Source: Dethiobacter alkaliphilus (lineage in GTDB: Bacteria; Bacillota; Dethiobacteria; DTU022; UBA8154). From it: a stretch of DNA of 64,000 nucleotides. The notes under the pieces are model-generated. The model was not told the origin of the DNA. It did not search any database and saw only the letters and a list, made by a program, of their open reading frames with translations. Each line of letters starts with the position of its first letter. Position 1 is the stretch's first letter. Below are positions 6,096 to 56,600 of this stretch, in pieces. Both the position numbers and the translations under genes were made by a program. Where the stretch lies: NCBI GenBank assembly GCA_016841605.1, contig JAENYV010000001.1, forward strand, positions 231,540 to 295,539. The letters run 5' to 3'.

Positions 6096-6283
6096 TTAAT
6101 TAGCTCCGAAAGGATATACAGGGATTGATTACAAGTTGGGCAGAACTTACTCAAAACGCGGCAAGATAAGTTTTGCCCAGCCTGTATACCTTTTTTCAAA
6201 GCCCGAAATAATAGCGTTTTAAGAACTGATTACAGATAAAGGAGGTTCTTCCTATGAAATTGGGATTATGGTATAAGCGAGGG
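5160..6283 (+). repeat. 1.1-kb direct duplication, copy 1
   Basis: This stretch matches 11564-12684 at an offset of 6404 bp with only a handful of differences. It covers the HID domain, the last SUOX-like domain, the C-terminal domain, the 3' hairpin, the ribosome binding site and the first ~10 codons of the next gene. Confidence 0.95.
6112..6196 (+). terminator. Two-tier stem-loop followed by T6
   Basis: The outer stem pairs ATATACAGG (6114-6122) with CCTGTATAC (6181-6189). An inner stem pairs GGGCAGAACTTA (6138-6149) with TAAGTTTTGCCC (6167-6178). TTTTTT follows at 6191-6196. It lies directly downstream of the stop at 6095. An almost identical copy lies at 12516-12600. Confidence 0.6.
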
Positions 6284-9200
6284 AAAAGACCAACAATAAG
6301 AAGCAATTGCCTTGTTTTTTTGCTGCTCGCTGTTTCTTTTTGTTGCTTTTTTTCTTCAATGGCATTGGCTGAAGAAGCTGTAACCCCTGAACAGATTATT
6401 TTAACCTGGACGGCAGATCCTGCTACATCTCAAACCATAACCTGGTTGGCTCCGGACGATGCACCTTCGTATGTACAATACATTAGAGAAGCAGAATATT
6501 ATGACAGCTTTGATTCAGCCTTACAAATAGATGCCGGCGGTACACTTTTTGATAGTGTTAATTATCGTTATACCGCCAATTTATCCGGATTGACCCCTGA
6601 TACTAATTATGTTTATCGGGTAGGGAATGAAGGGAACTGGAGTGAGGCACAGTCTTTTTCTACTGCCGAAAATACACAAAACGTTACTTTTATGTACATG
6701 GGAGACGTGCAATCCGGGTACGACGAATGGGGGAACGTGTTAAGTTCGGTTTACCAGGAATATCCGCAAATTAAATTTACTCTTTTGGGAGGAGATCTAA
6801 CCGACAACGGCAGTGATGAAACTGAGTGGGGACAGTTTCTAGATGCTGCGGCAAGTACTTTTTCCCGTATACCAGTGATGCCGACCATTGGCAACCACGA
6901 TGGAGTAATGTATTCGAACTTTTTTGCCTTACCGGATAACGGACCCGAAGACTTGGAACAGGAATGCTACTCTTTTGATTACGGAAATGCTCACTTTGTT
7001 GTACTGAACAGTAATAAAAATGCCGTTGCAAGTGCAATCCAATGGCTGCAGGACGACCTGCAGAACACAACTAAAAGATGGAAATTTGCCATGTTTCATC
7101 ATCCTGCCTATCCCGCCTTCGAGGATTACAAAACAATTGATGAGTCAATATGCACAAACTGGGTACCCATTCTGGAGCAGAATGGAGTGGATATGGTTTT
7201 TGTCGGACACCAGCATGAGTATATGAGGACTTATCCCCTGTATCAGGGAGAAATCCGGACCGATCCGGCAGTTTACGGCATTGTCTACGTGATGGGTAAT
7301 GCCGGCTCCAAGATATACGGCGGCGGATCGGGTTTTTCCTATATAGCCAGGGAAGAAAGCGGCAGCAATTATCAGGTTTTAGATATTAACGGCAATGTTT
7401 TAACCATGACTTCCAGAAAAACAACTGGCGAGCTGATTGAAACTTACACGATAAACAAAAGCCTCCTGACCGCTTCGACTTTAACGCCGGATGTAACGCG
7501 AAACGGAGTAGGCAAGGAAATTGACCTGAGCTTTGAAGATGATCCCGATTGGCGGGCAGCCATTACGGATATCACCGTAAATGGAAGCTCCATTGCCGGT
7601 AGATATAGGGTTACTTCCGGAAATGTTAATATAGATGCCGACGTGTTTAACGATTTGGGTGAATATGTAATATTAGTAAATGCATGTGGTTATTCGGATG
7701 CCTCAGTGACGCAGTTCATAATAGAGGATGATTCGGATTGGTACGACGGCTACATCAGCACCGTAATAGGTAATGGGACTCGTGGGTACTCCGGTGATGG
7801 CGGCCCGGCAACTGAGGCCCAGCTTAGAAGTGCGTATGATGTGGCGATGGACAGCGGGGGCAACATATTTATCGCGGACAGCGCTAACTATCGGGTGCGC
7901 ATGGTAGCAGCGTCTAGTGGCACACACTATGGCATTCCGATGACTGCAGGGAATATATACACCGTGGCGGGAAATGGAACCAATGATTACTCCGGTGATG
8001 GCGGTCCCGCTACCGAAGCTCAAATAAAAAGCGTATATGGACTGGCAGTGGACAGTGCCGGCAATATCTATATTAATGATAGAAGTGACTATCGAATTAG
8101 AAAAGTAGACCCCAGCGGTATCATTACTACTGTAGCCGGTGACGGAACTTCCGGGTACTCCGGTGACGGTGGACCGGCTACCGGTGCGCAATTAAACAGA
8201 GGATATGGCTTAGCGGTAGACGAGGCAGGCAATTTATATCTAGCGGATGGATCAAATTATTGTGTTCGTATGGTAGCAGCAAGTTCAGGTACATACTATG
8301 GAATTGCTGTGACTGCCGGAAATATCTATACCATCGTCGGTAATGGAACCAGTGGCTATTCAGGCGATGGCGGACCGGCTGTCAGTGCTCAGATAGAAAC
8401 TACTTACGATGTTGCAATAGATAACTCTAATAATCTTTATATAGCAGATCTTTCTAGAATCCGCAAGGTGGATCCCAGTGGCATCATTAGTACCGTAGCG
8501 GGAAGCGGAAGCTCCGGTTATTCCGGTGACGGCGGTCCGGCTATGTGTGCCGAATTGAGATCATACAGTCTGGCTGTGGACAGCAATTACAATCTCTACA
8601 TTGCCGATAAAAATTACTATTGTATACGTATGGTGGATGGCAACGGGATAATTGCTACAGTGGCAGGAGGTAATGGAAGAGGGTATAGTGGTGACGGTGA
8701 TCTAGCTACCAATGCAAAGCTTCAGCCCTATGGTCTTGCGATTGACAGCGCAGGGGGACTATACATCGCTGACCAGTCCGGGTATAGTGTGCGCTACTTA
8801 CAGTCCCCGGCCGCGGCACCATTGCTGGTCAGCCTTAGCTTAAGCGGAAGCCCGGGTCTGACTTATAGCGGCACTCCATTGACCTATGATCTGGGTGGCC
8901 TCACCCTTGCCGGCGTAGATCAGGACGGGGCGGCATATGACCTCAGTGATAAGACGGTCACCTGGACTGTTAAATCAGGTCCGGCTGAACTCAGCGATAC
9001 TACCTTGTCCATAGTACGTGGTGGAACAGTTGAAATCTCAGCTCAAGTTCTCGGGGTTATCACCGATTTTAACTTTACTGTAGATACGGGTGATTTGCCG
9101 GTTATAGAATTGACTGTCGGTGATATTAACACTATAGCAGGAATCGGGATTAAAGGCTATGCCGGCGACGGTGGCCCGGCTATCAATGGACAGTTAAACA

Positions 9201-12200
9201 GTCCCGGTGATGTGGCAATAGACAGCGCCGGCAATATTTTCATCGCAGATGAAGGCAACAATCGTATACGAGCGGTAGCAGCCAATACCGGTACGCAATA
9301 CGGGATTGACATGACAGCAGGGAACATATATACAGTGGCCGGGATTGGAACCAGGGGCTATAGCGGTGATGGCGGGCCGGCTGTCAGTGCCGAGCTGGGA
9401 CAGATTGAAGCTCTAGCAATTGACAGCACCGGCAATATTTATATAGTTGACGTGATAAATAATTGCCTTCGTAAGATCGATATAAATGGTATCATCAGCA
9501 CCGTAACCAGTATCAATAGTGCTCGTGGTTTGGCGATAGACGGCTCCGGGAATATCTACATGGGCGGTGCTCCAAACACCGGTATCTGTATGCTGGCTGC
9601 AGAAACAGGAATGAAGCATGGAATTTCCATGACGGCAGGTAATGTCTATACTGTTGCAGGTAACGGGACGGGTGGCTATTCCGGGGACGGCGGACCGGCC
9701 ACAAGTGCTAAGATATATGGTGACGGCATCATCGCCGTGGACTGTTCCGGCAACCTGTACATCTCCGATACTTATAACTATCGTGTTCGCAAGGTTGATC
9801 CGAGCGGCATTATTACTACTGTGGCCGGTAACGGCAGCCAGGGTTATTCCGGTGACAACGGACAGGCCACTGATGCGGAAATATACCCCATAGGCATAGC
9901 GGCGGACAGTGCCGGCAATCTCTTCATCAGCGGCAATAGGTGCGTTCGCAAAGTTGATGTCAGCGGTATCATTACTACGGTTGCCGGTGACGGGACCTCC
10001 GGTTACTCCGGTGACGGTGGACCGGCTACAAGTGCGCAAATGAAATCTCCCTGGGGCCTAGAAGTGGACGATGCAGGCGATCTATATATTACAGATATTA
10101 ATAATAATTGTGTTCGATATGTTAAGTTGGTTCCGGATGAGGACCCGGGCCTGGTCAGTCTGACCTTAAGCGGCAGCCCGGATTTGAACTACAATGGCAC
10201 CTCCATAGAATATGACCTGAGTGGTCTAAGCTTGACCGGCACCGGCGATTCGGAGGAGATCATTGATCTTGAAGGCCTGACGGTTACCTGGGCAGTCTGC
10301 TCCGGGCCGGCTACGGTCTCAGGTAATATTTTAACTATAACAGGCAGCGGTTCCATCAATGTCAGTGCTTCAATTTATGATGTCATAAGTAACGTTCTTA
10401 GCCTGACTGTTAATGATATTGGAGCTGACCCCCCGTCACTAACAGCTGATCCCGGCGATAAAATCATTGGTGAGGATGATGTGGAAATAACCTTTACCGA
10501 AGATTCAGCCTGGCGTGAGGCTATAAATACTGTAATCATTGACGATACGGTATTGGGAGATGGGGACTATTCGGCAGATAGCGCGGGTAAAATTATTATC
10601 AATGGAGATGTTTTCCAAAAAGCCGGGGATTATGTAGTAGTTATCAAGGCAACCGGCTATTCGGATGTCAGTGTGGTACAAACACTTGTTAGCTCGGAGA
10701 TTGTGCTTGAAATAACCGGGGATGGTGTAAACAATCATCTATCATATACCCTGGCCCAGCTTCAAGCAATGGAACAATACCGGCATTTGTACAGTACTAT
10801 TAACAAATGGCCCAGCAAAAAATGGTATGTAGGAGAAGGGGTTAAAGTAAAGGACCTTCTAACCCAGGCCGGGATGAAAGAAAATGCCACACTGATTAAA
10901 TTTACGGCTAGAGATGGCTATGCAATTACCTTTACTGTTCAAGAATTGCTGGATGACAAGCGCTATCTTTTCCCGAATTTTAAAGAACCCGGCGATGGGC
11001 ATATTCCTGGTTCTGCAGCAGATGCGGAAGAGGTAGAGACTATTCTGGCTTTGAATAGTGACAGCAGTAATGATTTTGATACCATGAACGACCATAACGC
11101 GTTACACTTGATTATAGGGCAGCGTGCAGTTGGTGAGCAGTTAAATGATGCCTATGTAAAATATGTAAATAAAATTGAAGTATTCACCACTGCCCTGTCA
11201 AAATGGGAAAGCCCGCAGGCGGTCCCGGATAGCGGAAATGTAGCTGTTGGAACGTTGGTAACATTGAGTACTTCCGATATGAATTGGGATAAGATTTATT
11301 ATACCCTGGACGGCAGTACCCCGACGATGAACAGTACCATGTACAATCCTATTGGTAAAGAATGGTGGTCATCAAGACAGGATGTTTTGAACACCATTAA
11401 TCATCCGATCGAAATTCAAAATAATACCACCATTAAAGCAATCGCCATTGGTCCGGGTAAGGAAAACAGCGATATTGCTATCTTTACGTATCAAATTGAT
11501 TCCGGCACTAACCCTCCGGCTCTTACCGCTGACACCACGGGCAACGAAATCGGGCAGATGGTGGAGATCACCTTTACCGATGATGCGGACTGGCGTGGGG
11601 CTATCACCGGGATAGAGGTGAACGGCTCAGACTTAAGCAGCGAGCAATATACTGTTAGCGAAGGTAATATAAACATTATTGCCGACGTATTCACTGCTGC
11701 AGGTGATTATACAATCGTGGTTACGGCTACCGGATACGAAGATGCGAGTGTTACTCAAACCATGGATGCATCAGCAGGGGTAGTTTTCACAGTTGATGGT
11801 GAAGTATCTCAGACCTATACAATGGCTGATTTAAAGGCGATGACAGCGACGACAGGCACATACGGATCAAAAACCTGTACTGGAGTAGCCCTAAACGACC
11901 TGCTGACAGGTTTGGGGATCACTGACGGCAATTGGACAGTGACCGTAAATGCAGCCGATGGATGGGAAACTGATCCGATTCCGGTCTCCGACATACAGGA
12001 ACCTACCAACAATTACCTGCTCACCTATGCGATAGACGGCAGTGACATCGTAGTGGACGGTGACAGCAATTTGACCCCGCTGCGCCTCTACTACGGCACA
12101 GCCGGCAATAGCGTATACAAGCATGTGGAATCAATCACGGTAAGTGAACCGGCAGGCTGTGAAGCGGTTTACACAGTCACACCGGTAAGTGATTCAGCTT

Positions 12201-12499
12201 ATACGGCAGGTACCACCCCGAGTGGTATCGATACTATGACGGTCAATAGTGGTATGACCGGGTTTAAATACTTCGCAGTTAACATTACGCCGGTAATAGA
12301 GCATAGTGGTAATGAGGCAGTAGTATTCACCCTTTTGCGAGATAGCATTCAGATCAGTATAAATGTGACCAAAGCTGATTTTGATCTTGTAACTACTGCC
12401 CAAGCAGGTTTTAATGTGCAGGCCGGTGATGTAATCAAGGCATATATTGTAGATGATTTGACCAATGCTGTAGATTGCAACCCGGTGATATTGCAGTAG
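6254..12499 (+). CDS. Giant secreted protein: purple-acid-phosphatase-like, NHL repeats, HID, SUOX-like
   Basis: 2081 residues, AAAGGAGG before the ATG, signal peptide about 1-39 (SSMALA). The N-terminal part is a fibronectin-III-like domain plus calcineurin-like metallophosphatase (about 45-395) with GDVQ, GGDLTDNG, GNHDG, FHHPAYP and GHQHEY in the order expected for purple acid phosphatases. An HID domain follows, then two blocks of NHL-type beta-propeller repeats (about 495-855 and 955-1295; core GYSGDGGPA) separated by Ig-like domains, a second HID, a SUOX-like domain of the YSTIN-x-WP type (about 1485-1650), a chitobiase-C-like domain, a third HID, a second SUOX-like domain and the same C-terminal domain as the protein at 996-6095. 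Phosphatase residues look intact, so a secreted phosphoesterase activity is plausible; the substrate is unknown. Confidence 0.75.
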   Translation: MKLGLWYKRGKRPTIRSNCLVFLLLAVSFCCFFSSMALAEEAVTPEQIILTWTADPATSQTITWLAPDDAPSYVQYIREAEYYDSFDSALQIDAGGTLFDSVNYRYTANLSGLTPDTNYVYRVGNEGNWSEAQSFSTAENTQNVTFMYMGDVQSGYDEWGNVLSSVYQEYPQIKFTLLGGDLTDNGSDETEWGQFLDAAASTFSRIPVMPTIGNHDGVMYSNFFALPDNGPEDLEQECYSFDYGNAHFVVLNSNKNAVASAIQWLQDDLQNTTKRWKFAMFHHPAYPAFEDYKTIDESICTNWVPILEQNGVDMVFVGHQHEYMRTYPLYQGEIRTDPAVYGIVYVMGNAGSKIYGGGSGFSYIAREESGSNYQVLDINGNVLTMTSRKTTGELIETYTINKSLLTASTLTPDVTRNGVGKEIDLSFEDDPDWRAAITDITVNGSSIAGRYRVTSGNVNIDADVFNDLGEYVILVNACGYSDASVTQFIIEDDSDWYDGYISTVIGNGTRGYSGDGGPATEAQLRSAYDVAMDSGGNIFIADSANYRVRMVAASSGTHYGIPMTAGNIYTVAGNGTNDYSGDGGPATEAQIKSVYGLAVDSAGNIYINDRSDYRIRKVDPSGIITTVAGDGTSGYSGDGGPATGAQLNRGYGLAVDEAGNLYLADGSNYCVRMVAASSGTYYGIAVTAGNIYTIVGNGTSGYSGDGGPAVSAQIETTYDVAIDNSNNLYIADLSRIRKVDPSGIISTVAGSGSSGYSGDGGPAMCAELRSYSLAVDSNYNLYIADKNYYCIRMVDGNGIIATVAGGNGRGYSGDGDLATNAKLQPYGLAIDSAGGLYIADQSGYSVRYLQSPAAAPLLVSLSLSGSPGLTYSGTPLTYDLGGLTLAGVDQDGAAYDLSDKTVTWTVKSGPAELSDTTLSIVRGGTVEISAQVLGVITDFNFTVDTGDLPVIELTVGDINTIAGIGIKGYAGDGGPAINGQLNSPGDVAIDSAGNIFIADEGNNRIRAVAANTGTQYGIDMTAGNIYTVAGIGTRGYSGDGGPAVSAELGQIEALAIDSTGNIYIVDVINNCLRKIDINGIISTVTSINSARGLAIDGSGNIYMGGAPNTGICMLAAETGMKHGISMTAGNVYTVAGNGTGGYSGDGGPATSAKIYGDGIIAVDCSGNLYISDTYNYRVRKVDPSGIITTVAGNGSQGYSGDNGQATDAEIYPIGIAADSAGNLFISGNRCVRKVDVSGIITTVAGDGTSGYSGDGGPATSAQMKSPWGLEVDDAGDLYITDINNNCVRYVKLVPDEDPGLVSLTLSGSPDLNYNGTSIEYDLSGLSLTGTGDSEEIIDLEGLTVTWAVCSGPATVSGNILTITGSGSINVSASIYDVISNVLSLTVNDIGADPPSLTADPGDKIIGEDDVEITFTEDSAWREAINTVIIDDTVLGDGDYSADSAGKIIINGDVFQKAGDYVVVIKATGYSDVSVVQTLVSSEIVLEITGDGVNNHLSYTLAQLQAMEQYRHLYSTINKWPSKKWYVGEGVKVKDLLTQAGMKENATLIKFTARDGYAITFTVQELLDDKRYLFPNFKEPGDGHIPGSAADAEEVETILALNSDSSNDFDTMNDHNALHLIIGQRAVGEQLNDAYVKYVNKIEVFTTALSKWESPQAVPDSGNVAVGTLVTLSTSDMNWDKIYYTLDGSTPTMNSTMYNPIGKEWWSSRQDVLNTINHPIEIQNNTTIKAIAIGPGKENSDIAIFTYQIDSGTNPPALTADTTGNEIGQMVEITFTDDADWRGAITGIEVNGSDLSSEQYTVSEGNINIIADVFTAAGDYTIVVTATGYEDASVTQTMDASAGVVFTVDGEVSQTYTMADLKAMTATTGTYGSKTCTGVALNDLLTGLGITDGNWTVTVNAADGWETDPIPVSDIQEPTNNYLLTYAIDGSDIVVDGDSNLTPLRLYYGTAGNSVYKHVESITVSEPAGCEAVYTVTPVSDSAYTAGTTPSGIDTMTVNSGMTGFKYFAVNITPVIEHSGNEAVVFTLLRDSIQISINVTKADFDLVTTAQAGFNVQAGDVIKAYIVDDLTNAVDCNPVILQ
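7743..8812 (+). repeat. NHL-repeat coding block 1
   Basis: In-frame repeats of roughly 45-65 codons, each with (V/I)AGNGT-x-GYSGDGGPA followed by a strand such as DSAGNIYIAD and RVRMV or RIRKV. This is a beta-propeller of the NHL type, not a non-coding repeat array. Confidence 0.85.
9118..10126 (+). repeat. NHL-repeat coding block 2
   Basis: A second set of NHL-type repeats in the same frame with the same GYSGDGGPA core, separated from block 1 by an Ig-like domain. It probably forms a second beta-propeller. Confidence 0.85.
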
Positions 12500-13181: not shown

Positions 13182-13296
13182 GCCCGCAATAGAGTACCGG
13201 CAGCCGAAGGTGGAAAATGACGTCAATAGTTGCAGCTGAACCATGCCGGAAGCGGTCAATAGCTTCATAACATTGAAAATTATAAAGGAGGATATA

Positions 13297-14193
13297 ATGA
13301 TGAATTCAAGCTTTTTAAAACAAAAAGCATGGATAAGGTTGTTTGGGGTATTGTTGGTCCTGGTATTGGGGTTCGGCTTGTTTGCCGGCCAGGCCTTTGC
13401 CGACGAATCTGATCAGATTGTCGTTAAACTGGATGGAGTCGATGCCGTGACATATACCCGAGCTGATTTAACAAGTAGTTTTAGTTCATACCAACAGCTA
13501 TATTCCACGATAAATAATTGGCCCACCAAGAAGTTCTATGCGACGGACGGCGTCGTTCTTTCAGACATATTAGACGATTATTTGGATGAAATTGAAGCGG
13601 AAGAAGATATTGAAGACATATATCTTATTAGTGTAAAAGCTACGGACAACTTAACGAAAGTTTTTACGAGAGAAGAGCTGCTGGATGATGCACGTTATTA
13701 TTATCCCAACCTCATGAGTGGCGATCCCAGCGGTGCTTCGTCGAGGGATACGGTTATTGCCCTGGAAAATGCCCAGGGAACGAATTATGGGTCAATGAGT
13801 GAAGACGACGGACTGCGGCTCTTTATGGGACAGCGGGCGATCACGGAGCAGAATAATCCCTGGTTGGTGAAATATGTCTGTGAGATTAATCTCATTACTG
13901 ACGAGCCGGACCAATGGGATCAACCCACTTCATCACATGCATCGGGGACAGTGACGGCCGGGACGCAGGTAACGCTCAATCATACCAGCATCAACGGGGT
14001 GAAGATTTATTATACCACTGACAGCAGCACTCCGGATGTGAACAGTACCATGTATAATGTAAGCGCTACCTACTACCAGCCGGAGTTGAACGTACCAATT
14101 ACGATCAACCAAACCACTACGGTTAAGGCCATCGCCATCGGACCGGGTAAAACCGATAGCGCTGTAGCTACCTGGACCTATACGGTGGAGTAG
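13297..14193 (+). CDS. Secreted SUOX-like/chitobiase-C domain protein
   Basis: 298 residues from the ATG behind AAAGGAGG. Signal peptide about 1-33 (GQAFA). The main domain (about 36-210) is the SUOX-like type with YSTIN-x-WP, KKFYATDG, RYYYP and MGQRAITEQ, also found inside the 6254 protein and in the proteins at 32010 and 33482. It lacks the LAC-x-H cysteine motif. A chitobiase-C/Fn3-associated domain with YYTTDSSTP and IAIGPGK follows (about 215-298). Exported and probably a ligand-binding or structural surface protein; no enzyme activity is evident. It has its own consensus promoter, a long leader with a palindromic operator, and a flanking inverted repeat. Confidence 0.7.
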   Translation: MMNSSFLKQKAWIRLFGVLLVLVLGFGLFAGQAFADESDQIVVKLDGVDAVTYTRADLTSSFSSYQQLYSTINNWPTKKFYATDGVVLSDILDDYLDEIEAEEDIEDIYLISVKATDNLTKVFTREELLDDARYYYPNLMSGDPSGASSRDTVIALENAQGTNYGSMSEDDGLRLFMGQRAITEQNNPWLVKYVCEINLITDEPDQWDQPTSSHASGTVTAGTQVTLNHTSINGVKIYYTTDSSTPDVNSTMYNVSATYYQPELNVPITINQTTTVKAIAIGPGKTDSAVATWTYTVE

Positions 14194-14452: not shown

Positions 14453-15244
14453 ATGGAAGAAATTCGTATCAGTCCGATCGGAGTCGTAAAAACCGGATTG
14501 GGTGATATTAATTCTCTGCCCGGGGAAGGGGAAAAAGCGATCGTGGAACTAAAAGAAGAATACGTTCCCGCCCTGCAGCGTATCGAAGAAAATTCCCATA
14601 TCTGGATCATCTGCTGGTTTGACAGAGCCGACCGGAATTTATTACAAACTATGTCGCGTATTATGGAGCCTGAACCGCTTAAATTCGGAGTTTTTGCCTT
14701 GCGCTGTTCTTCCAGACCCAATCCTATTGCCCTTACCCTTGTCTCCCTGGATAGGGTCGAGGGGAATCTGCTTTATGTGACAGGACTGGATGCCTACGAG
14801 AATACGCCGGTACTGGATATTAAGCCTTATTACGAGCAGGACGGTATTTTTTCACCCCGGACCAGCTACGTGAAACCCAAGGACGAAGATGTCCGCCGCA
14901 GCTTTATGCACAAGCTGGCTTATCGCCACCACGGAGTTGAATCAGTTGCTCTGGAAATGGGACTGCGTATCTGCTTGCTGGCAGAAACTCATTTTGGACA
15001 CTTGTTTGATCCTGCTTTGTTAGTATCGGTAAAAGGTTCACGGGAGTTGGGCGATGTAATTCAGGGGATTACCAGGGCCAGGCCGGCCAATCCTCCTCGC
15101 TTTACCTTTTGCGAAGCTGAGGCAGATGAAGTTATTTTCACCAGGAATGAAAGGGTCCTGAAAATCAACATAAAAAAAAGGTACTCTGGGGAAGAGTTGC
15201 CGGGCTTAAGCGATGATGATATATTTTTCTTACAAATGAAGTAA
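14453..15244 (+). CDS. TrmO (TsaA)-FmdE fusion protein, copy 1
   Basis: 263 residues. Residues 1-135 form a TrmO/TsaA-type beta-barrel domain with NSHIWIICWF, RPNPI (88-92) and TPVLDIKPY (118-126), motifs of the SAM-dependent enzymes that N6-methylate t6A in tRNA. Residues about 150-245 resemble FmdE, the small protein encoded with molybdenum formylmethanofuran dehydrogenase: HHG (159-161), ALEMGLRICLLAETHFG and DVIQGITRARPANPPRF. The FmdE cysteines are missing here. TrmO proper lacks this second domain, so a tRNA role is doubtful; the protein may methylate a small molecule or chelate. Three other copies lie at 17543, 39922 and 56601, each beside transport genes. Its own promoter lies at 14385. 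Confidence 0.75.
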   Translation: MEEIRISPIGVVKTGLGDINSLPGEGEKAIVELKEEYVPALQRIEENSHIWIICWFDRADRNLLQTMSRIMEPEPLKFGVFALRCSSRPNPIALTLVSLDRVEGNLLYVTGLDAYENTPVLDIKPYYEQDGIFSPRTSYVKPKDEDVRRSFMHKLAYRHHGVESVALEMGLRICLLAETHFGHLFDPALLVSVKGSRELGDVIQGITRARPANPPRFTFCEAEADEVIFTRNERVLKINIKKRYSGEELPGLSDDDIFFLQMK

Positions 15245-15396: not shown

Positions 15397-15550
15397 TTTT
15401 TATAGTTGTAAATCGCTTGGATAAGGCAGGAGTTTTTTTTTGGTCTCCGTTATGTATATGTATGCATAATTGAACGATAATTGGACGGCTGGATGTTCTA
15501 TTGGATAAGAACGATTGAGTGCACAAGAAATTTAAAAAGGAGTGATTTTC

Positions 15551-16300
15551 ATGTTAGAGGGCTCCTCACAAATTTATAAGAAAGATTTTTACAGTTTTTC
15601 TGTAGAAAAAAAATTTATCAGTAAAAAAAATAATGTTTTTCTGGTAAAAACAAATGAACCAGGCGAAAAATATCTGGTACAAAAGATATATTCCTGCCCG
15701 GAGAAAATGCCTGGAGAAGTTGAAATGCTGTGTTTATTAAAAGAAAAAGGGGTCGCTGTCCCTCAAATTTTTGGCACAGGGGAAAATTATGTTTTATTGG
15801 AATACCTCGAAGGTCCATTATTTCTTGACTTTTTTTGCTGGCAGGAGAATATCTGCGGACCTGACCGGAGTTCGCTGAAAGGGCCTGCTTACCAGACCAT
15901 TTACAGCCTGTGCAGCTGGTTTAAGTCTTTTTATACAGCTTCGCGGGCAATTACCGGAAGACAGTACATTATGGGGGATGTCAATTTCAGAAATTTTATT
16001 ATTAGGGAAAAAATTTACGGGGTCGATTTAGAAGAATGCCGGGAGGGAAAAATTGAGGAGGATATTGGGAACCTTTGTGCTTATGCCCTTACCTACTCGC
16101 CTACCTTTTCTTCGTGGAAGATGGCCATGACAGGGAAATTATTACAGATTTTGATCAGTGAGCTTGATCTGGATAAAGAACTGGTCAAAAAAGAAATACA
16201 AAAAGGTCTTCTCTTTATCGCCGGAATAAGAGGGACGCTCCATGAAATGGCGAAGATTCCGGTGAATAAACTGCTGGAAAAAAGTATGCGCTTTGTGTAA
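15551..16300 (+). CDS. Kinase-fold protein (APH/choline-kinase-like)
   Basis: 249 residues from the ATG spaced 9 bp after AAAGGAG; an upstream in-frame GTG at 15542 is too close to it. The pattern is that of the aminoglycoside-phosphotransferase/protein-kinase fold: an early Lys in YLVQKIY, a hinge VLLEYLEGP, the catalytic-loop-like GDVNFRN (142-148, replacing HGDxxxxN) and a metal-site Asp in YGVDLEE (D159), followed by EDIGNL. The catalytic residues are therefore mostly present, although His of the loop is Met. Substrate unknown. It has its own promoter and stands between a TrmO-FmdE gene and a MOT1-type transporter. Confidence 0.55.
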   Translation: MLEGSSQIYKKDFYSFSVEKKFISKKNNVFLVKTNEPGEKYLVQKIYSCPEKMPGEVEMLCLLKEKGVAVPQIFGTGENYVLLEYLEGPLFLDFFCWQENICGPDRSSLKGPAYQTIYSLCSWFKSFYTASRAITGRQYIMGDVNFRNFIIREKIYGVDLEECREGKIEEDIGNLCAYALTYSPTFSSWKMAMTGKLLQILISELDLDKELVKKEIQKGLLFIAGIRGTLHEMAKIPVNKLLEKSMRFV

Positions 16301-16383: not shown

Positions 16384-17526
16384 TTGAAGATAAGATCATT
16401 TGAATTTAACCTGCGTGAGCTCTCCGGTGCTATGGGGGATATGGGGACCCTCTTACCTCTGGCAGTGGGCTATTTTGCCGTTTGCGGTCTTAATCCTGCC
16501 GGTTTACTGGTAATGATGGGTCTAGCCAATATCGCTACGGGACTGGTTTACAGACTCCCCATACCCATTGAGCCTATGAAAGTGCTGGCCGTGGTGGCTA
16601 TTGCCCAGCAGTGGTCTCCCTCTATGATCTACGCTTCGGGCTTTGCTATGGGAATTATCTGGTTGCTTTTCGCGGTTACGGGAATTATGAGTTGGGTGGC
16701 AAAATTTACTCCGCATCCCGTCATACGCGGTATTCAGGTGTCTCTGGGCATTTTGCTGGCCGTGGAGGCGCTGAAAATGCTTTCCACCTGGTGGATATTG
16801 GGTCTAGTCTCCGTTGCTATTGTCCTGGTCTTACGACAGAACCGCTATGCTCCCGGTGCAATTGTCCTAATTCTTCTGGGACTGGTGATCATGCATTATC
16901 AGGGCAAGTTCGCAGCTTTAAAAATGCTGGAACTGCAGCTGCCGGGGATCACTTCTTTTACTCCCGGACAGATTTGGCAAACCCTGTTGTTGGCAGGCTT
17001 TGCCCAGCTTCCCCTTACTGCTACCAATGCTGTTATTGCTACTTCATCCCTGATCAGCACTTACTGGCCTGACAGGTATGTCAGCGAAAGGAGGCTTTCC
17101 TTAAACATGGGCATCATGAACCTGGTATTTCCCTTTTTCGGTGGAATGCCTCTCTGCCATGGTGCCGGGGGGCTGGCGGGTCAGTATTATTTTGGGGCCA
17201 GGACGGGTGGCGCAAACATCATCGAAGGACTCATCGAAATTTCCCTGGGACTTTTTTTCGCCTCGTCCATTGCTTATATCTTTGCTTCTTTTCCCATGGC
17301 TGTTATCGGAGCGATGATGTTTTTAGTCGGCGTTGAGATGGTCAAATTTACGAGGGATATTACCGTTAAAACCGACCTGTTGCCCCTGGGGGCAACTGTT
17401 GCGGTTTCACTCTGGACAAACATGGCTTTCGGCTTCCTGGCCGGATTGGGCCTTTTTTATTTAATGAAGGCCATTCTGAAGAAAGATCAACAGTCATCAA
17501 ATGAAACAGTTAAAAATAAAAAATAA
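16384..17526 (+). CDS. MOT1/sulfate-permease-type membrane transporter
   Basis: 380 residues with about ten hydrophobic segments. It carries the paired motifs of the MOT1 molybdate/SulP-like family: GAMGDMGTLLPL near residue 15, LPIPIEPMKVLA near residue 58 and GGMPLCHGAGG in the second half. Plant and algal MOT1 proteins import molybdate, and bacterial members are annotated as putative sulfate or molybdate transporters; the substrate cannot be told from sequence. The start is a TTG about 12 bp after GGAGGGGGG; the nearer ATGs are in a frame that stops at once. The next gene, a TrmO-FmdE fusion, starts 17 bp later, which suggests co-transcription. Confidence 0.75.
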   Translation: MKIRSFEFNLRELSGAMGDMGTLLPLAVGYFAVCGLNPAGLLVMMGLANIATGLVYRLPIPIEPMKVLAVVAIAQQWSPSMIYASGFAMGIIWLLFAVTGIMSWVAKFTPHPVIRGIQVSLGILLAVEALKMLSTWWILGLVSVAIVLVLRQNRYAPGAIVLILLGLVIMHYQGKFAALKMLELQLPGITSFTPGQIWQTLLLAGFAQLPLTATNAVIATSSLISTYWPDRYVSERRLSLNMGIMNLVFPFFGGMPLCHGAGGLAGQYYFGARTGGANIIEGLIEISLGLFFASSIAYIFASFPMAVIGAMMFLVGVEMVKFTRDITVKTDLLPLGATVAVSLWTNMAFGFLAGLGLFYLMKAILKKDQQSSNETVKNKK

Positions 17527-17542
17527 ACACGAGGTGAATGGA

Positions 17543-18349
17543 ATGGAAGAGATTTGTCTTCGTCCGGTTGGAGTTGTGAAAAACAGGGTGGACGATATTT
17601 ACTCTATGCCCATGGAAGGAGAAAGAGCGGTCGTAGAGATAAAAGAAGAGTATATACCAGCCCTGCAGCGTATCGAAGAAAATTCTCATATCTGGATTAT
17701 CTGCTGGTTTGACAAGGGTGAACGGGATGTATTGCAAACTATGCCGCGTATTATCGAACCTGAGCCGGTAAAATTCGGGGTTTTTGCCGTGCGCTGTTTT
17801 AAACGGCCCAATCCTGTGTCCATGACCCTTGTTTCCCTGGAAAGAGTTGAGGGGAACCTGCTTTATGTGACAGGTCTGGACGCTGTTGAAGGAACGCCGG
17901 TCCTGGATATCAAGCCGTACTATGAGCAGGACAGTATTTTTTCGCCCCGGACATGCTATGTGAAACCCAAGGAGGAAGATGTCCGCCGCAGCCTTATGCA
18001 TAAGACGGCTTACCGTCACCACGGAGCGGATTCGGCTGCTCTGGAGATCGGATTGCGTATTTGCCTGGTGGCGGAAACCAATTTCGGGCACCTGCTTAAT
18101 CCTGCTTTATCCGTATCGGTGAAAGGTTCCCGGGAGTTGGCGGATGTAATCCAGGGGATCACCAGAGCTAAACTGGCCAACCCTCCCCGCTTTACTTTCT
18201 GCGAAGCCGGAACGGATGAAGTTATTTTTACCATGGATAAAAGGGTATTGAAATTCAGCGTTAAGAAAAAGTACTCTCCGCAAGAATTGCAAGGCTTAAA
18301 AGATAATGACATCTTTCAGATCACAAAAGAACCGGACGATTGGAATTAA
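17543..18349 (+). CDS. TrmO (TsaA)-FmdE fusion protein, copy 2
   Basis: 268 residues from the ATG after GAGGTG; the longer frame starting at 17501 overlaps the transporter and has no ribosome site. It closely resembles the copy at 14453: NSHIWIICWF, RPNPVS, TPVLDIKPYY, then the FmdE-like half with HHG, ALEIGLRICLVAETNFG and DVIQGITRAK. The FmdE cysteines are again absent. It lies between the MOT1-type transporter and the first FecCD importer group, so the product is probably tied to uptake of the ligand moved by one or both. Confidence 0.75.
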   Translation: MEEICLRPVGVVKNRVDDIYSMPMEGERAVVEIKEEYIPALQRIEENSHIWIICWFDKGERDVLQTMPRIIEPEPVKFGVFAVRCFKRPNPVSMTLVSLERVEGNLLYVTGLDAVEGTPVLDIKPYYEQDSIFSPRTCYVKPKEEDVRRSLMHKTAYRHHGADSAALEIGLRICLVAETNFGHLLNPALSVSVKGSRELADVIQGITRAKLANPPRFTFCEAGTDEVIFTMDKRVLKFSVKKKYSPQELQGLKDNDIFQITKEPDDWN

Positions 18350-18393: not shown

Positions 18394-19041
18394 TTGTATC
18401 AGAAGAGGAAAAGAAAGGCTGTTGTCATCCCCATGTTGATTCTCACAGTTGTTTTACTCTTGACATTGTCAATACCTGCAGCGTTTGCCGCCGGTGGCGG
18501 TGGCGGCGGCGGCGGAACCGGCGGGGGTAGTGGAGATCCGCTGGCACTGGTTTCCGTAACTCCGGAAGACGGGGCGGTTGATGTGGCTCAGCCGGTGGAA
18601 ATAAAGCTGGTCTTTAGCAAAAATGTGGTACATATGTCTGTACATGATGCCAACGCACAAAAATTTAACCTGACAGATGCGGATGGTGTCATGGTTCCTC
18701 TGGAAGTTGTCATGGCCGATGACCAAATTGAACCGGAAAAGCGTGAAGAGGTCATCTTGATACCGAAAGAAGAACTTACTCCTGATACGGTTTATACAAT
18801 TACTGTTGCTGCGGGTCTGGAGTCGAAAAGCAATACTGTTCTTGAGCAGGACCTGAAACTGACGTTCAGGACCGCTCCCGCAACGGCACCCGTATCCTCA
18901 GCTGATACCGACGCAGCACAGAATGAACCGGTAGAAACGCCGCCTTCTTCAGCGCAGCCTGCAACAAGTATTGCAGTGGTTTTGGTAGTAGTCGTCGCTG
19001 CAGTTGTGTTTATGTTAGCGAAAAGATTAAGAAGCAATTAA
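18394..19041 (+). CDS. Secreted Ig-like (Big_5) protein with C-terminal membrane anchor
   Basis: 215 residues, TTG start 7 bp after GGGAGG. Signal peptide (about 1-32), a glycine-rich linker, an SbsA/Big_5 Ig-like domain (about 48-160, beginning LVSVTPEDGAVDV with VFSKNV), a flexible Ala/Pro/Ser stretch, and one C-terminal transmembrane helix with a basic tail (AKRLRSN). It should sit on the outer face of the membrane. A paralog at 23134 takes the same place ahead of the second importer, so the pair probably act as surface partners of the binding proteins. No enzymatic motif. Confidence 0.65.
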   Translation: MYQKRKRKAVVIPMLILTVVLLLTLSIPAAFAAGGGGGGGGTGGGSGDPLALVSVTPEDGAVDVAQPVEIKLVFSKNVVHMSVHDANAQKFNLTDADGVMVPLEVVMADDQIEPEKREEVILIPKEELTPDTVYTITVAAGLESKSNTVLEQDLKLTFRTAPATAPVSSADTDAAQNEPVETPPSSAQPATSIAVVLVVVVAAVVFMLAKRLRSN

Positions 19042-19089
19042 GCAGACGCAATAAGAAATAGATGGAATCATACTCTGTCAACGAATTAG

Positions 19090-20103
19090 GTGAGGATAAT
19101 CCGCAGGAGAGGTCTTTTTTTACTTTTAATATTAGTACCGTGTGCTTTTGTGATCTTTTCGCTGACTATCGGCCGTTATCCGTTGCCGCTGTCCGTTATC
19201 GCAAAAATAATGTGGTTTCGCCTGTGGGGTCTGGTCGGCCAATTTCCTGATACTTATGAAGTTGTTGTCTGGGATATCCGCTTTCCCAGGGCCCTGCTGG
19301 GCGTATTTGTCGGTGCCAGCCTGGCGGTCAGCGGGACGGCATTTCAGGGGTTGTTTCGCAACCCGCTTGTCAGTTCGGGAACACTCGGTGTCAGTGCAGG
19401 TGCCGGTTTCGGCGCCTCACTTGCCATCGTGCTTTTCAATAATACTGCTCTTATTTATATTTTTGCGTTTGCGTTCGGAGTTCTGTCTGTGGTGCTCAGT
19501 TATCTGATTGGCCGTTTTTACAGCGCTACGCCCACCATTACTCTGGTCCTCGGCGGTATCATTGTTTCTTCAGTGTTTTCAGCGCTCGTTTCCCTGGTCA
19601 AGTATGCTGCTGATCCCTATGAACAACTGCCTGCCATTGTTTTCTGGTTAATGGGCAGCCTGGCCTCTGCCCGCTACAGCGACCTGATGGTGGCAGGCAT
19701 TCCTATGGCCATAGGAATGGCGGGCTTGTTTGCCGTTCGCTGGCAGATTAACGTGCTCTCTATGGGAGACCGTGAAGCCCGCTCCCTGGGTATAAATACA
19801 TCGGTAGCAAAAGGACTGGTCCTGGCTTGCGCGACGATGGCCACGGCCGGTGCGGTCTGTGTCAGCGGTATTATCGGCTGGGTAGGCCTGGTTATTCCCC
19901 ATATAGGGCGCATGCTGATCGGCAATGACAATAAACTATTGGTTCCGGTCAGCATTTCCCTGGGTGCCTGTTTCCTGCTGCTGGTGGATATGCTAGCCCG
20001 GACCATTTCCGGTTCGGAAATACCTCTGAGTATTTTAACCGCTCTCCTGGGCGGCCCGTTTTTTGTTTACCTGTTAAAGAAAACCAAGGGAGGGGGTTGG
20101 TAA
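19090..20103 (+). CDS. FecCD/BtuC-type ABC importer permease (importer A)
   Basis: 337 residues with about ten transmembrane segments and the family signatures RFPRALLGVFVGASLAVSG, FRNPLVSSGTLGVSAGAGFG and GWVGLVIPHIGRMLIG. These permeases carry ferric siderophores, heme or cobalamin. The GTG at 19090 is the only upstream start in frame and lies inside an SD-like AGGTGAGG, so the exact start is uncertain. The ATPase gene follows 3 bp after the stop, and the binding protein follows that. Closest relative in the window is 23681-24700. Confidence 0.85.
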   Translation: MRIIRRRGLFLLLILVPCAFVIFSLTIGRYPLPLSVIAKIMWFRLWGLVGQFPDTYEVVVWDIRFPRALLGVFVGASLAVSGTAFQGLFRNPLVSSGTLGVSAGAGFGASLAIVLFNNTALIYIFAFAFGVLSVVLSYLIGRFYSATPTITLVLGGIIVSSVFSALVSLVKYAADPYEQLPAIVFWLMGSLASARYSDLMVAGIPMAIGMAGLFAVRWQINVLSMGDREARSLGINTSVAKGLVLACATMATAGAVCVSGIIGWVGLVIPHIGRMLIGNDNKLLVPVSISLGACFLLLVDMLARTISGSEIPLSILTALLGGPFFVYLLKKTKGGGW

Positions 20104-20106
20104 CCA

Positions 20107-20922
20107 GTGGCACTGTTGGAAGTCAAAAATTTGTTTTTTAGTTACAGTGATCAGCCCGTCCTGGAAGAAGTCAATTTCAAACTCGGTAAAGGGGAGATAT
20201 TTTGCCTCTTCGGCCCCAATGGCTGTGGGAAATCAACCCTGTTGGAATGCGTGCTGGGTACGCTGAAAATTTCCAGAGGCTATGTTTATCTTAACGGCAG
20301 GGACGTAAGAAACCTGCGCCCTGCCGAAGCAGCCCGTCAAATGGCTTACGTTCCGCAGCTCCACCAGAAAACGTTTCCTTATACGGTTAAAGAGATCGTT
20401 TTAATGGGCAGGGCCGCGTATACAGGGATGTTTACATCACCGTCGGAGGAAGATTACGCTGCGGTAGAAGAAGCCATGCAAAAAATCGGTATTCAGAGGC
20501 TGAGCGAGAAACCCTATACACAACTGAGCGGTGGGGAACTGCAGTTGGTGATGATAGCCCGGGCCCTGGCGCAGAAGACACCGGTTATGATCATGGATGA
20601 ACCCACGGCCCACCTGGATTTTCGTCATGAATTGATTATTCTGGAGACTGTGGTGCAACTGGTCAGAGAAACCGGCCTCTCTATTCTGATGGCCACGCAT
20701 TTCCCCAATCACGCCTTTTTTTTTGATAATAACGATATCCCCACTACGGTGGCCCTGATGAACAGCCGCAGGTTTGCGGCTGTTGGCCGGCCGGAAGAGG
20801 TCCTCTCCGAGCAGAGTATGCAGCGGACATTTAATGTTGAAGCCCGTATGGTATCCTACTATCGGGAAGGCAAGAAGGAATTCCGGCAAATCGTAGCTGT
20901 CAGGACCAACGGTTTACGTTGA
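20107..20922 (+). CDS. FecE/BtuD-type ABC importer ATPase (importer A)
   Basis: 271 residues, GTG start. Walker A GPNGCGKST (about 36-44), signature LSGGELQLVMIARAL, Walker B VMIMDEPTAHLD and switch His in MATHFPNHAF are all intact. It energises the permease encoded just upstream. As in importer B, the segment after the switch His is extended (FFFDNNDIPTT) compared with importers C and D, which separates A/B from C/D as two subfamilies. Confidence 0.88.
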   Translation: MALLEVKNLFFSYSDQPVLEEVNFKLGKGEIFCLFGPNGCGKSTLLECVLGTLKISRGYVYLNGRDVRNLRPAEAARQMAYVPQLHQKTFPYTVKEIVLMGRAAYTGMFTSPSEEDYAAVEEAMQKIGIQRLSEKPYTQLSGGELQLVMIARALAQKTPVMIMDEPTAHLDFRHELIILETVVQLVRETGLSILMATHFPNHAFFFDNNDIPTTVALMNSRRFAAVGRPEEVLSEQSMQRTFNVEARMVSYYREGKKEFRQIVAVRTNGLR

Positions 20923-20966
20923 TTAAGAAAGAGATTTAGAGATTTAGAAATTTGGAGGATTGAACA

Positions 20967-22064
20967 ATGAAAGCAAGAGCATCCGGTCTTTGCCTGATAC
21001 TAATCTTTCTTTTGCTTATCTTGCCGGTCTTTCCAGGCTGTACCGGAAAGACAATTGATTCCGAAGCGGTCCAATCTGCAGAAAACCAAACAATACAGGT
21101 TACAGATTCCTTCGGGCGTACTGTTGAGGTACCGGCCGGCGTGGAGCGAGTTGCCACCCTGTATGCCTTTACCGGACATGTGACGACGCTGCTTGGTAAA
21201 GGTGAGCTGATTGTTGCCGTAAACCGCGGCCTTAAGCGGGACATTCTCTTTAACCGCATTAACCCGGTGATTGCCGCTGCAGTTATGCCTGTTGCTGCAG
21301 ATAAAGTCAATATAGAAGAACTGCTGAGAGCCGAACCTGACCTGGTTTTTGTACAGGGCAGCGTGTTTCGGGATGAAAAGGAAAGGGAAAAGCTGGATAA
21401 AACCAAAATTCCTTATCTGGCGGTGGAATTTAACGGTATTGAAGAGCAGATCAGCACTATTGAAGCGATCGGAAAGGCTTTGGGTGCCTCTGATACCGCT
21501 TCCCGTTACCTGGATTACTACCGGGGGGTTCTGGATCTGGTCCAAAAGCGGGTCGCAGATATCCCTGAAAGCGAAAAAATTCGTATTTACCATTCCATCA
21601 ATGAGGCGACCCGCACCTATGGCCGGGATAATCTGGCCGCGGACTGGACAACTATGGCAGGGGTAATTAACGTATCCCTGGACCAGGAACTCCGCCTCCT
21701 GAACAATAATTATTTTGCCGGTCTGGAACAGATCCTGCTCTGGGACCCCGAACTTATCCTGGTCAACGAGGACGGAGTCGCGGACTATATTTTGACCAAC
21801 ATACAGTGGTCACCCTTACAGGCGGTAAAAAACGACCGGATCCATCAGATGCCTGTGGGCGTTTCCCGCTGGGGGCATCCGGGTTCACTGGAAACACCTC
21901 TGGGTATTCTTTGGGCCTCCAAGTTGTTTTATCCGGAACTCTTTGCGGATATTGATATATCAGCGGAAACACGTAAAATATACCGGGATTTTTTTGGCTA
22001 TGACCTGAGCGATGAGGAACTGGAAAGCATGTTGAGCGGCAGAGGTATGCGGGAGGCAAAATAG
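20967..22064 (+). CDS. Metal-chelate-type substrate-binding lipoprotein (importer A)
   Basis: 365 residues. Lipoprotein signal with Cys in LPVFPGC. The rest is a BtuF/FhuD-type binding protein with a long backbone helix: VTDSFGRTVEVP at the start of the mature part, a C-lobe with GVSRWGHPGSLETPLG, and LFYPELF near the end. It should sit outside the membrane and pass its ligand to the permease at 19090. Ligand unknown; the family binds siderophores, heme and corrinoids. The RWGHP motif is shared with importer B and, in altered form, with the radical SAM fusion at 43769. Confidence 0.82.
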   Translation: MKARASGLCLILIFLLLILPVFPGCTGKTIDSEAVQSAENQTIQVTDSFGRTVEVPAGVERVATLYAFTGHVTTLLGKGELIVAVNRGLKRDILFNRINPVIAAAVMPVAADKVNIEELLRAEPDLVFVQGSVFRDEKEREKLDKTKIPYLAVEFNGIEEQISTIEAIGKALGASDTASRYLDYYRGVLDLVQKRVADIPESEKIRIYHSINEATRTYGRDNLAADWTTMAGVINVSLDQELRLLNNNYFAGLEQILLWDPELILVNEDGVADYILTNIQWSPLQAVKNDRIHQMPVGVSRWGHPGSLETPLGILWASKLFYPELFADIDISAETRKIYRDFFGYDLSDEELESMLSGRGMREAK

Positions 22065-22105
22065 TATCCGCCCGGCGGATAAACACCAGGAAAGAGGGTT
22101 TGACT

Positions 22106-22984
22106 GTGAAACTGCTTATATGTATTGACGATACCGATAATCTCGAATCCAGGGGAACCGGAGCGGTAGCTGAAGGAATAAAAGACCTGATTACGGAAAA
22201 CGGGTTCGGCAGATGCATCTTTACGACAAGGCATCAGCTGCTCCTGCATAAAGATATTCCCTATACTTCCCATAACAGCTCCATGTGTTTTGAATGCGAT
22301 ATTAAGGATGATATCTACAGTGCCGTGGAAAAAGCGGCCACAGAGTACTTGCGCAGGGAAAGCGCCGAAGGCTCCGATCCGGGGATTTGTATCGCTAAAA
22401 GAAGAGAAGAATTAAATGAAGCTGTTCTGGTTGAATTTGGCTTAAGGGCTAAAAGACAGCTTTTAACAAAGGAAGATGCCTACAGCATAGCGGCACACGC
22501 GGATGTTTATTTAAAGGAGGTGGGTGGGACAGGCCAGGGAGTTATCGGAGCGTTGGCCGGTGTGGGGCTGCGGCTTGACGGCAATGACGGTGAAGTTAAA
22601 GGCGGAGTTGATCAATTCCGTAAAGGGGAGACCTATACGGTGGAGCAATTGCTTTCCAACCGCGCCATAGAAGCGGTTTATGACGGCAAGTTGAATTCCC
22701 TGGCCGGCGATCAGGCGGTCTTTATTACATGGAAGGCAAAACCGGTCATAGTCAATAAAAGACCGGTAATGGTGGTTGCCTGGGATGAAGAGGCACAAAT
22801 TTGGAGAAGCATGTACAAAAAGGAAATGCGTGCCTTTGGTGATGAGTGTACATACAAAAAGGCGTGTCAGGCTTTTACATTTGATGTGGAGGAGGAATTA
22901 GTAGATGATGATGAACGCTCGTGTCTAAACTGCCGTTACAGGAGATGGACGGATAAATCCTTTTCCTGCGGTTATATAGGATGA
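22106..22984 (+). CDS. TiaS-like protein (tRNA-Ile2 agmatinylcytidine synthetase family)
   Basis: 292 residues from the GTG 7 bp after AAAGAGGG; the TTG at 22100 is too close. The N-terminal CIDDTDNLESRGTG matches the ATP-handling IDDTD motif of archaeal TiaS, which joins agmatine to C34 of tRNA-Ile2. The C-terminus has a short zinc-ribbon-like cysteine cluster (SCLNCRYRR...SCGY). It is shorter than archaeal TiaS, which is usually over 400 residues, and bacteria normally use TilS instead, so a tRNA function is unlikely. It lies 41 bp after a binding-protein gene and before importer B, pointing to work on the imported ligand. The call is by motif only. Confidence 0.6.
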   Translation: MKLLICIDDTDNLESRGTGAVAEGIKDLITENGFGRCIFTTRHQLLLHKDIPYTSHNSSMCFECDIKDDIYSAVEKAATEYLRRESAEGSDPGICIAKRREELNEAVLVEFGLRAKRQLLTKEDAYSIAAHADVYLKEVGGTGQGVIGALAGVGLRLDGNDGEVKGGVDQFRKGETYTVEQLLSNRAIEAVYDGKLNSLAGDQAVFITWKAKPVIVNKRPVMVVAWDEEAQIWRSMYKKEMRAFGDECTYKKACQAFTFDVEEELVDDDERSCLNCRYRRWTDKSFSCGYIG

Positions 22985-31894: not shown

Positions 31895-32009
31895 TGAAAC
31901 CTGGCGTATTCTTCCCCAAAGGGGGCATGCCCATAAATCTAAAAAACGAAAACATCTGATGTGTCCGTAGGGAAAGTAAGAGTTAATTAAGAAAGGAGTG
32001 TTTATTATT

Positions 32010-33203: not shown

Positions 33204-33481
33204 TGACTGTTTCTGATACCGATTCTTCATTCGTTGTTCCCGCTACCGGCTGTAAAAAAGCCTGTATAAATCATATGACAACAACAAGTGTGCAATAGGG
33301 TCTGCGCGGATAGTAAACAAATCTATATATTAACGAGGAAGGCGGCGCCACAGTTGACATGTAATGTCAGTGTGGCTGCTGCTGTAATTACAGGGTTAAC
33401 ATTTTTATCCTGAACAAGAAAAATTTATTAATCTTTAAATAAATTATTTTAAAAAATTATAAGGAGGAGAGGTGATAAGAA
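33204..33481 (+). other. Intergenic region
   Basis: 278 bp between two paralogous genes. A short inverted repeat TGACAT-GTA-ATGTCA lies at 33355-33369. No confident promoter or terminator seen; AAGGAGGAGAGGTGAT precedes the next gene. Confidence 0.4.
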
Positions 33482-39864: not shown

Positions 39865-39921
39865 GTGTAACAAAGCAAGCAATTTTTCGCTGTAGTGTTA
39901 AGAAGAGAAGGGGGAGATTTG

Positions 39922-41807: not shown

Positions 41808-41810
41808 AAA

Positions 41811-42608: not shown

Positions 42609-42613
42609 GAGAT

Positions 42614-51365: not shown

Positions 51366-51366
51366 A

Positions 51367-52983: not shown

Positions 52984-52987
52984 ACCC

Positions 52988-56507: not shown

Positions 56508-56600
56508 CTTCAGGAAAAAAGTATTCCCATAGAAGGAAAATAAGTCTTTTTGACCGAATATATAACATCATATTACTCTCAAATTAGGAGGATTAAGGTT

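Follow-up and report, generated by a model that had tools for sequence, protein, structure and literature searches.

Do four TrmO paralogues that share one locus, each joined to a second domain, still act on tRNA, or do they serve the transporters encoded beside them? TrmO (YaeB/TsaA) is a class VIII tRNA t6A37 N6-methyltransferase. The original prediction read the four paralogues as TrmO-FmdE fusions that had turned from tRNA, by neofunctionalisation, to a small-molecule or metal-centre substrate. The locus lies in Dethiobacter alkaliphilus (GCA_016841605.1; genome 4.07 Mb, 98% complete). The window, that is, the whole stretch of 64,000 nucleotides analysed (JAENYV010000001.1, 231540-295539), holds four open reading frames with a TrmO_N domain, all on the plus strand, as had been claimed:

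14453-15244, plus strand: copy 1, TrmO_N plus FmdE-like fusion of 263 aa (PF01980, E 2.6e-28); TrmO_N at about 14528-14836 and FmdE-like domain at 14873-15241; the predicted model matches 2nv4 and 2glz
17501-18349, plus strand: copy 2, fusion (PF01980, 1.2e-28); FmdE-like domain at 17963-18346, from the alignment
39895-40731, plus strand: copy 3, fusion (PF01980, 5.2e-27); FmdE-like domain at 40342-40728
56550-57446, plus strand: copy 4, divergent fusion (PF01980, 6e-23); FmdE-like domain at 57054-57443

Pfam E-values for PF01980 range from 6e-23 to 1e-28 across these ORFs, and PF01980 matches nothing else in the 4.07 Mb genome. The genome is thus without any other TrmO, which was the first half of the refutation named with the original prediction. 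Copy 2 likely starts at 17543. Copy 1 shares 73-74% identity with copies 2 and 3, and 25% with copy 4. Copies 1-3 score 105-109 bits (copy 1, 105.4) against the NCBI TrmO equivalog TIGR00104, above its cut-off of 93.25 bits; copy 4 falls narrowly below it at 89.6 bits.

Pfam misses the second domain. FmdE (PF02663) is absent from all four copies at E<=0.01 and from copy 1 at E<=1, the entire genome gives no PF02663 match at E<=1, and no window copy reaches the Pfam gathering score. Predicted folds and profile comparison nevertheless agree that all four copies carry it. The AlphaFold models of copies 1 and 4 (mean pLDDT 77.9, with the FmdE part mostly at 85-96, and 71.2, respectively; parts of the TrmO barrel are low-confidence in both) match the TrmO structures 2nv4, 7btu and 1xqb. 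Straight after these, Foldseek ranks the FmdE-like structure 2glz, at E 1.2e-4 for copy 1 and 5.1e-5 for copy 4 (probability 1.00 each). Aligned to 13 FmdE sequences with hhalign, the fusion C-terminal domain gives P 8.5e-6 and copy 4 alone 6.5e-6. Of the 24 sequences in the fusion alignment, 15 match PF02663 at E<=1 (lowest E, 2.4e-7), and the relative G098 (locus L129) clears the curated cut-off (32.1 versus 22.9 bits). A profile search of PDB sequences returned 2glz as its sole match, at a weak E of 0.021. On these predicted models and profiles, we regard the FmdE-like domain as a real part of the window copies.

The architecture itself is not new. PMC2954224 (2010) named a UPF0066-FmdE architecture, with the same two domains in one protein as the window fusions, and reports that most FmdE genes adjoin metal-ion transporters; the passages of that paper available to us give no function, canonical/non-canonical split, riboswitch or molybdoenzyme linkage for UPF0066-FmdE. 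The window domain shares with FmdE/FwdE (PF02663; 2glz, 2gvi, 3d00) the fold, His15, Asp58, Gln61 and the linkage to metal transporters, and differs in being fused behind TrmO_N and in its metal ligands. With residues numbered as in the available part of PMC2954224, the ligand set (His, His and Cys of FHGHxC plus Cys55) is incomplete in all four copies. In the alignment, copies 1-3 keep His15 only, which is the second H of HHG; His17 is replaced by V, A or K, Cys19 by S and Cys55 by E. Asp58 and Gln61 are retained, and Arg or Lys occupies the Thr67 position. Copy 1 has an arginine loop with Arg208, Arg210 and Arg216. The statement that in these copies the FmdE cysteines are replaced while HHG remains was therefore correct, but just one HHG residue is a ligand position. 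Copy 4 retains FH and TGC..KGN, and has no ligand cysteine. Cys19 and Cys55 persist in other members of the fusion clade, and the full TrmO-FmdE fusions L128 and L220-L223 have their FmdE cysteines intact. According to the available part of PMC2954224, 2glz contains Ni/Zn, and 3d00, which is missing two ligands, has an anion site occupied instead.

How far the proteins have departed from TrmO was assessed on 114 proteins: 20 canonical TrmO and 94 others (four window copies, 35 fusions, five full fusions, 36 stand-alone proteins, 11 Cdd-TrmO and three RNase H fusions). Duplicates of later loci (L005-L008, L010, L011, L014, L019 and L020) had been dropped before any counts were made, and L119 and L131 were omitted from the signature counts and the tree. 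The DPRxxY motif is present in 20/20 canonical TrmO and in 0/94 others, including 0/4 window copies. The AdoMet-contacting Arg, Asp and Lys are conserved in 4/4 window copies and 35/35 fusions. The AdoMet-contacting Gln is E, E, E and Y in copies 1-4 and is lost in 34/35 fusions, so that SAM binding is not assured in the window copies. According to the available passages of Kimura et al. (PMC4132733), R92A and K136A abolish m6t6A, Q25A and D125A strongly reduce it, and the DPRxxY residues Asp194 and Arg196 are required in E. coli; PMC4132733 also gives Methanoculleus, one of the archaea with several YaeB copies, as having seven. Compared with TrmO, the window copies thus share the TrmO_N β-barrel and three AdoMet contacts, lack the DPRxxY C-terminal domain and the AdoMet Gln, form a separate clade, occur in several copies and sit in a metal-import context.

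The phylogeny that had been proposed as a check supports this separation. In a tree of 110 rows (the near copies L022, L023, L114 and L118 omitted), all four window copies lie outside the canonical TrmO clade (100/99), and copies 1-3 fall within the fusion clade (100/98), well apart from canonical TrmO. Copy 4, outside the canonical clade, forms a very long branch (2.76) and is otherwise unplaced. L136/L138 join copy 1 (99/82) and L133/L135 join copy 2 (100/85); these are orthologues from other genera, and the copies therefore predate the divergence of those genera. Because copies 1-3 interleave with orthologues of related genomes, they are old paralogues and no recent local expansion. The fusion architecture is also present in other orders and on one Desulfuromonadales contig. 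Given that the split from canonical TrmO is family-wide and the fusion is already found elsewhere, neofunctionalisation did not arise in the window locus. The predicted direction, away from tRNA, fits the signature, the importers and the Mo/W and cobalamin riboswitches of relatives; its reading as a local event does not fit the tree. TrmO_N is wholly absent from 17 of 40 relatives, and m6t6A therefore does not look essential in the group.

Not every fusion-sized TrmO_N ORF proved to be an FmdE fusion: 11 order-level relatives have cytidine deaminase-TrmO and three have TrmO-RNase HI proteins. Both were removed from the fusion set, and the Cdd set served as a control. The Cdd-TrmO proteins (L139-L149, from 11 genomes that belong to a single family of the same order) carry TrmO_N behind the cytidine deaminase in a conserved locus with what we take to be ybeY-, phoH-, dgk-, era- and recO-like genes; they form one clade in the tree, keep R, D and K, and lack DPRxxY. 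In L110, L111 and L116 TrmO_N is fused to what is presumably an RNase HI-like domain. L119 (G379:C3), whose genome encodes a canonical TrmO as well, carries TrmO_N with a long His/Asp/Glu-rich tail whose composition suggests metal binding.

The genes around the four copies are as follows:

15542-16300, plus strand: APH-like gene between copy 1 and MOT1 (PF01636, 4.4e-4, under cut-off)
16384-17526, plus strand: MOT1-type molybdate permease (PF16983, 1.9e-54)
18394-22064, plus strand: secreted Big_5 protein, then FecC-FecD-FecB importer set 1 (PF13205, PF01497)
22100-22984, plus strand: TiaS-TCKD-like gene after the first FecB (methanogenesis marker 11, 7e-12, far under cut-off)
40773-43747, plus strand: FecC-FecD-FecB importer set 3, immediately after copy 3 (from translations and homology to FecC/FecD/FecB of relatives)
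43769-45574, plus strand: radical SAM protein with a C-terminal periplasmic-binding-like part (PF04055, 1.4e-15; PF01497, 8e-4, under cut-off)
49006-50507, plus strand: pair of HypB/CobW-like GTPase (PF02492, 7e-12) and ABC ATPase (ABC_tran)
50547-51365, plus strand: molybdate-binding protein ModA (TIGR01256, 93.4 bits, above the cut-off of 62.5)
51304-56507, plus strand: Opp/Nik-type importer OppA-B-C-DF, immediately upstream of copy 4 (PF00496, 4.9e-70)
57809-58942, plus strand: cysteine desulfurase family protein (TIGR01977, 468.8 bits, above the cut-off of 377)
59007-62080, plus strand: FecC-FecD-FecB importer set 4 (from translations and homology to FecC/FecD/FecB of relatives)

Copies 2-4 are adjacent to transporters, as had been claimed; copy 1 is separated from MOT1 by the APH-like gene. 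MOT1 abuts copy 2, immediately upstream, a pairing that recurs in L134 and L137; copy 3 ends about 40 nt ahead of its FecC gene; and homologues of the GTPase/ABC ATPase pair adjoin TrmO in L191 and L195. The best model for the window OppB is the Opp2B nickel permease, at 259 bits under a cut-off of 350. FecBCD-type importers can carry molybdate, as does MolBCA of H. influenzae.

Several other features of the neighbourhood were recorded. At 45639-46660 lie two ArsP-like permease ORFs, each of half length and in a frame of its own, which may reflect a frameshift or a permease encoded by two genes. Related class I SAM methyltransferases are encoded at 47453-48094 and 62259-62876, each adjoining importer genes. 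Secreted repeat proteins form a very large cluster of about 120 kb around the locus (6254-12499, 13243-14193 and 31998-34600 in the window; L263-L265 in the flanks); their relatives adjoin fusion genes elsewhere, some of them behind Mo/W riboswitches. The TiaS-TCKD-like family recurs in Mo/W loci (window 22100-22984, L024, L117/L260/L261 and L126), with three tandem copies in G342.

To ask how general the importer linkage is, we counted, from coordinates, the loci where a permease or binding-protein gene of a metal-type importer lies within 6 kb of TrmO. Such genes were found at 44/68 non-canonical loci versus 1/51 controls. By class, they flank 18/32 fusions (a set that excludes L023, L114, L118 and the window copies; Fisher P 1e-8 against the pooled 1/51), 20/27 stand-alone short TrmO (8e-12) and 6/9 loci of the full-fusion clade (1e-5); the controls comprise canonical TrmO (0/20), Cdd-TrmO (0/11) and random stretches (1/20). 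None lies within 6 kb of five other short TrmO or the three RNase H fusions. Fourteen of the 32 fusion loci have no importer within 6 kb, and some of these sit on short contigs. A separate FmdE gene lies near 9/27 stand-alone TrmO and 2/32 fusion loci. Among 113 same-strand neighbours from 31 fusion loci, Pfam matches include ABC_tran (17), Oxidored_molyb (6), ABC_cobalt (5), DUF364, described as 'putative heavy-metal chelation' (3), MOT1 (2) and FmdE (2); a large NCBIfam tally of neighbours is dominated by generic ABC ATPase models and so told us little. The importers near fusions are of mixed type (Fec, Opp, Tup, ECF and NMT1), and therefore no single substrate is implied.

Fusion and stand-alone/full-fusion-clade loci were scanned with Rfam (the canonical, Cdd and random control loci lay outside the scan), using RF01055 at its gathering score for the Mo/W-cofactor riboswitch. 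The scan covered 26 of the 32 fusion loci, leaving out L113, L121, L124, L127, L129 and L135, and found RF01055 in nine (L009, L016, L022, L024, L112, L117, L120, L122 and L132). The arrangement varies: in L016 the riboswitch ends about 220 nt ahead of the fusion gene, in L112 it is downstream, in L024 the nearest one is on the strand opposite the fusion, which is that of the adjoining TiaS-like gene, and in L009 it is more than 6 kb upstream. In the genome of L127 a riboswitch lies about 2 kb from the fusion. By genome-wide totals, RF01055 occurs within 6 kb of 6/27 fusion loci versus 0.89 expected under uniform placement (P 1.2e-4), a null that ignores the clustering of Mo genes.

In relatives, operon-like runs join the fusions to genes of Mo/W transport or of molybdoenzymes. 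G342 has four Mo/W riboswitches on one contig. One leads molybdopterin oxidoreductase, XdhC, the fusion and DUF364; another leads Big_5-FecC-FecD-FecB-TiaS, 40, 67, 62, 49 and 41% identical to window 18394-22984; and a third leads FecB, radical SAM, a 389 aa protein, FecC and FecD, like the genes after window copy 3. In L132 a riboswitch is followed by TupABC, DUF364, an SBP, the fusion and FmdE; in L137 TupABC and MOT1 precede the fusion. L134, the closest locus to the window copies (fusion 81% and MOT1 84% identical to those of the window), runs from MOT1 through the fusion to a xanthine-dehydrogenase-like gene with Pfam scores under cut-off. The fusion genes of relatives sit in operons of the Moco/Tuco riboswitch regulon described in PMC2408646 (2008). 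The window differs from that regulon in having no Mo/W riboswitch, even at E<=5 (two thresholds were used), and shares with it an operon-like adjacency to Mo/W transport genes, MOT1 abutting copy 2. The host genome has three Mo/W riboswitches, one of which lies 33 kb beyond the end of the window, and another precedes a WtpA-like gene. The retrieved flanks of the close orthologue loci L133 and L135 contain no Mo/W gene. The available text of PMC2408646 links Mo/W riboswitches without a P3 stem to the tungsten cofactor, and contains none of the terms formylmethanofuran, FwdE/FmdE or methyltransferase; the riboswitches near fusions are mostly about 118-124 nt and, judged by this length, may be of the tungsten-cofactor type.

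The cousins of the fusion clade point to another metal. Cobalamin riboswitches were found in 7/29 scanned stand-alone or full-fusion-clade loci versus 0/26 fusion loci, and a Mo/W riboswitch in 1/29 of the former (L220); on riboswitch-bearing loci, the Mo/W versus cobalamin partition has a Fisher P of 4e-4. Within 6 kb, cobalamin riboswitches occur at 8/35 stand-alone or full-fusion-clade loci versus 0.70 expected. In L231 one directly leads an OppABCDF-TrmO-FecB run; in L182 it leads the next operon, not that of TrmO. At L180-L199, L222 and L231, stand-alone TrmO has FmdE and importers of the Fec or Opp type as neighbours, and several of these loci carry cobalamin riboswitches; they are likely the cobalt-acquisition counterpart. 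No paper in the literature searched ties TrmO-type proteins to Mo/W or cobalamin riboswitches, and none brings FmdE, TsaA and methyltransferase together; the fusion architecture and the proximity of FmdE to metal transporters were noted in 2010, and the riboswitch partition did not turn up in that search.

A side branch of TrmO, joined to a domain of metal proteins and adjacent to transporters and riboswitches for Mo/W and, in its cousins, Co, therefore probably handles scarce metals rather than tRNA. For the fusion clade, there is good support for a part in Mo/W uptake or cofactor handling, and copies 1-3 likely share it; for copy 4 the indications come only from its Opp, Fec, ModA and cysteine desulfurase neighbours. 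In its full form, our preferred reading, held with moderate confidence, is that the four proteins are class VIII (β-barrel) SAM-binding members of a non-canonical TrmO/YaeB branch, in which an FmdE-like domain replaces the tRNA-binding C-terminal domain and which serve Mo/W uptake or cofactor handling. We infer the role in the host genome, SAM use, methyl transfer, substrate and oxyanion binding as follows. Mo/W would enter as an oxyanion, chelate or cofactor via the neighbouring importers and be bound in the cleft of the FmdE-like domain, which is probably dimeric like 2glz. Using SAM, the TrmO_N barrel would then methylate either a ligand atom of the bound metal species or a cofactor intermediate, and the metal would thereby be released or committed. 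In copies 1-3, the loss of Zn/Ni ligands and the arginines gained would make an oxyanion a better fit than a divalent cation. More tentatively, and with some doubt, the whole non-canonical branch could consist of metal-cofactor methyltransferases, the FmdE-fused clade acting on a Mo/W small molecule or cofactor intermediate and the stand-alone and full-fusion cousins in cobalt/corrinoid acquisition.

The proteins might instead be linked to metals without being catalysts, as SAM- and metal-sensing partners that gate the neighbouring importers or feed a regulator. The linkage to many importer types and the loss of the AdoMet Gln and of FmdE ligands would fit, as would the metal sensing or regulation that the available part of PMC2954224 suggests for some FmdE members; but the invariant AdoMet Arg, Asp and Lys in all fusions suggest a working pocket and no fusion to a transporter occurs among the retrieved loci, so we consider such a role unlikely. 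It also appears improbable that the proteins process chelates of Ni, Co, Mo and W in general, methylation of a donor atom of the imported chelator weakening its binding so that FmdE takes the metal. The cobalamin riboswitches of the cousins, the Opp2B nickel-type model (under its cut-off), DUF364 in 3/113 neighbours and the Ni/Zn of 2glz in the passages of PMC2954224 are in keeping with this, but most cation ligands are gone from copies 1-3, and TupABC, MOT1 and ModA import oxyanions, for which no chelator is needed. The ties of the fusion clade to Mo/W transport genes led us to drop a reading in terms of nickel as the single metal. We regard it as very improbable that the copies are true tRNA t6A37 methyltransferases whose RNA-binding domain has been exchanged and which provide the m6t6A of a genome that lacks canonical TrmO: the equivalog scores of copies 1-3, the absence of any other TrmO and the conserved AdoMet Arg, Asp and Lys speak for it, but DPRxxY and Gln, whose importance E. 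coli mutants show in the available passages of PMC4132733, are missing, the clade is separate from canonical TrmO, importers flank 0/20 canonical loci (the riboswitch scan being of non-canonical loci), four copies are left unexplained, and G379 and G418 hold both canonical and non-canonical TrmO_N genes.

Copies 1-3 pass the NCBI TrmO equivalog and would thus be annotated with a function in tRNA, which the evidence does not bear out. If the metal-cofactor reading is true, enzymes annotated as tRNA methylases would catalyse an unknown methylation as Mo, W and Co are taken up or inserted. A functional linkage to Mo/W and Co would point to an unrecognised SAM-dependent step in metal-cofactor acquisition, and would give the long-unexplained FmdE domain a partner for which methyl transfer from SAM is a straightforward assay.
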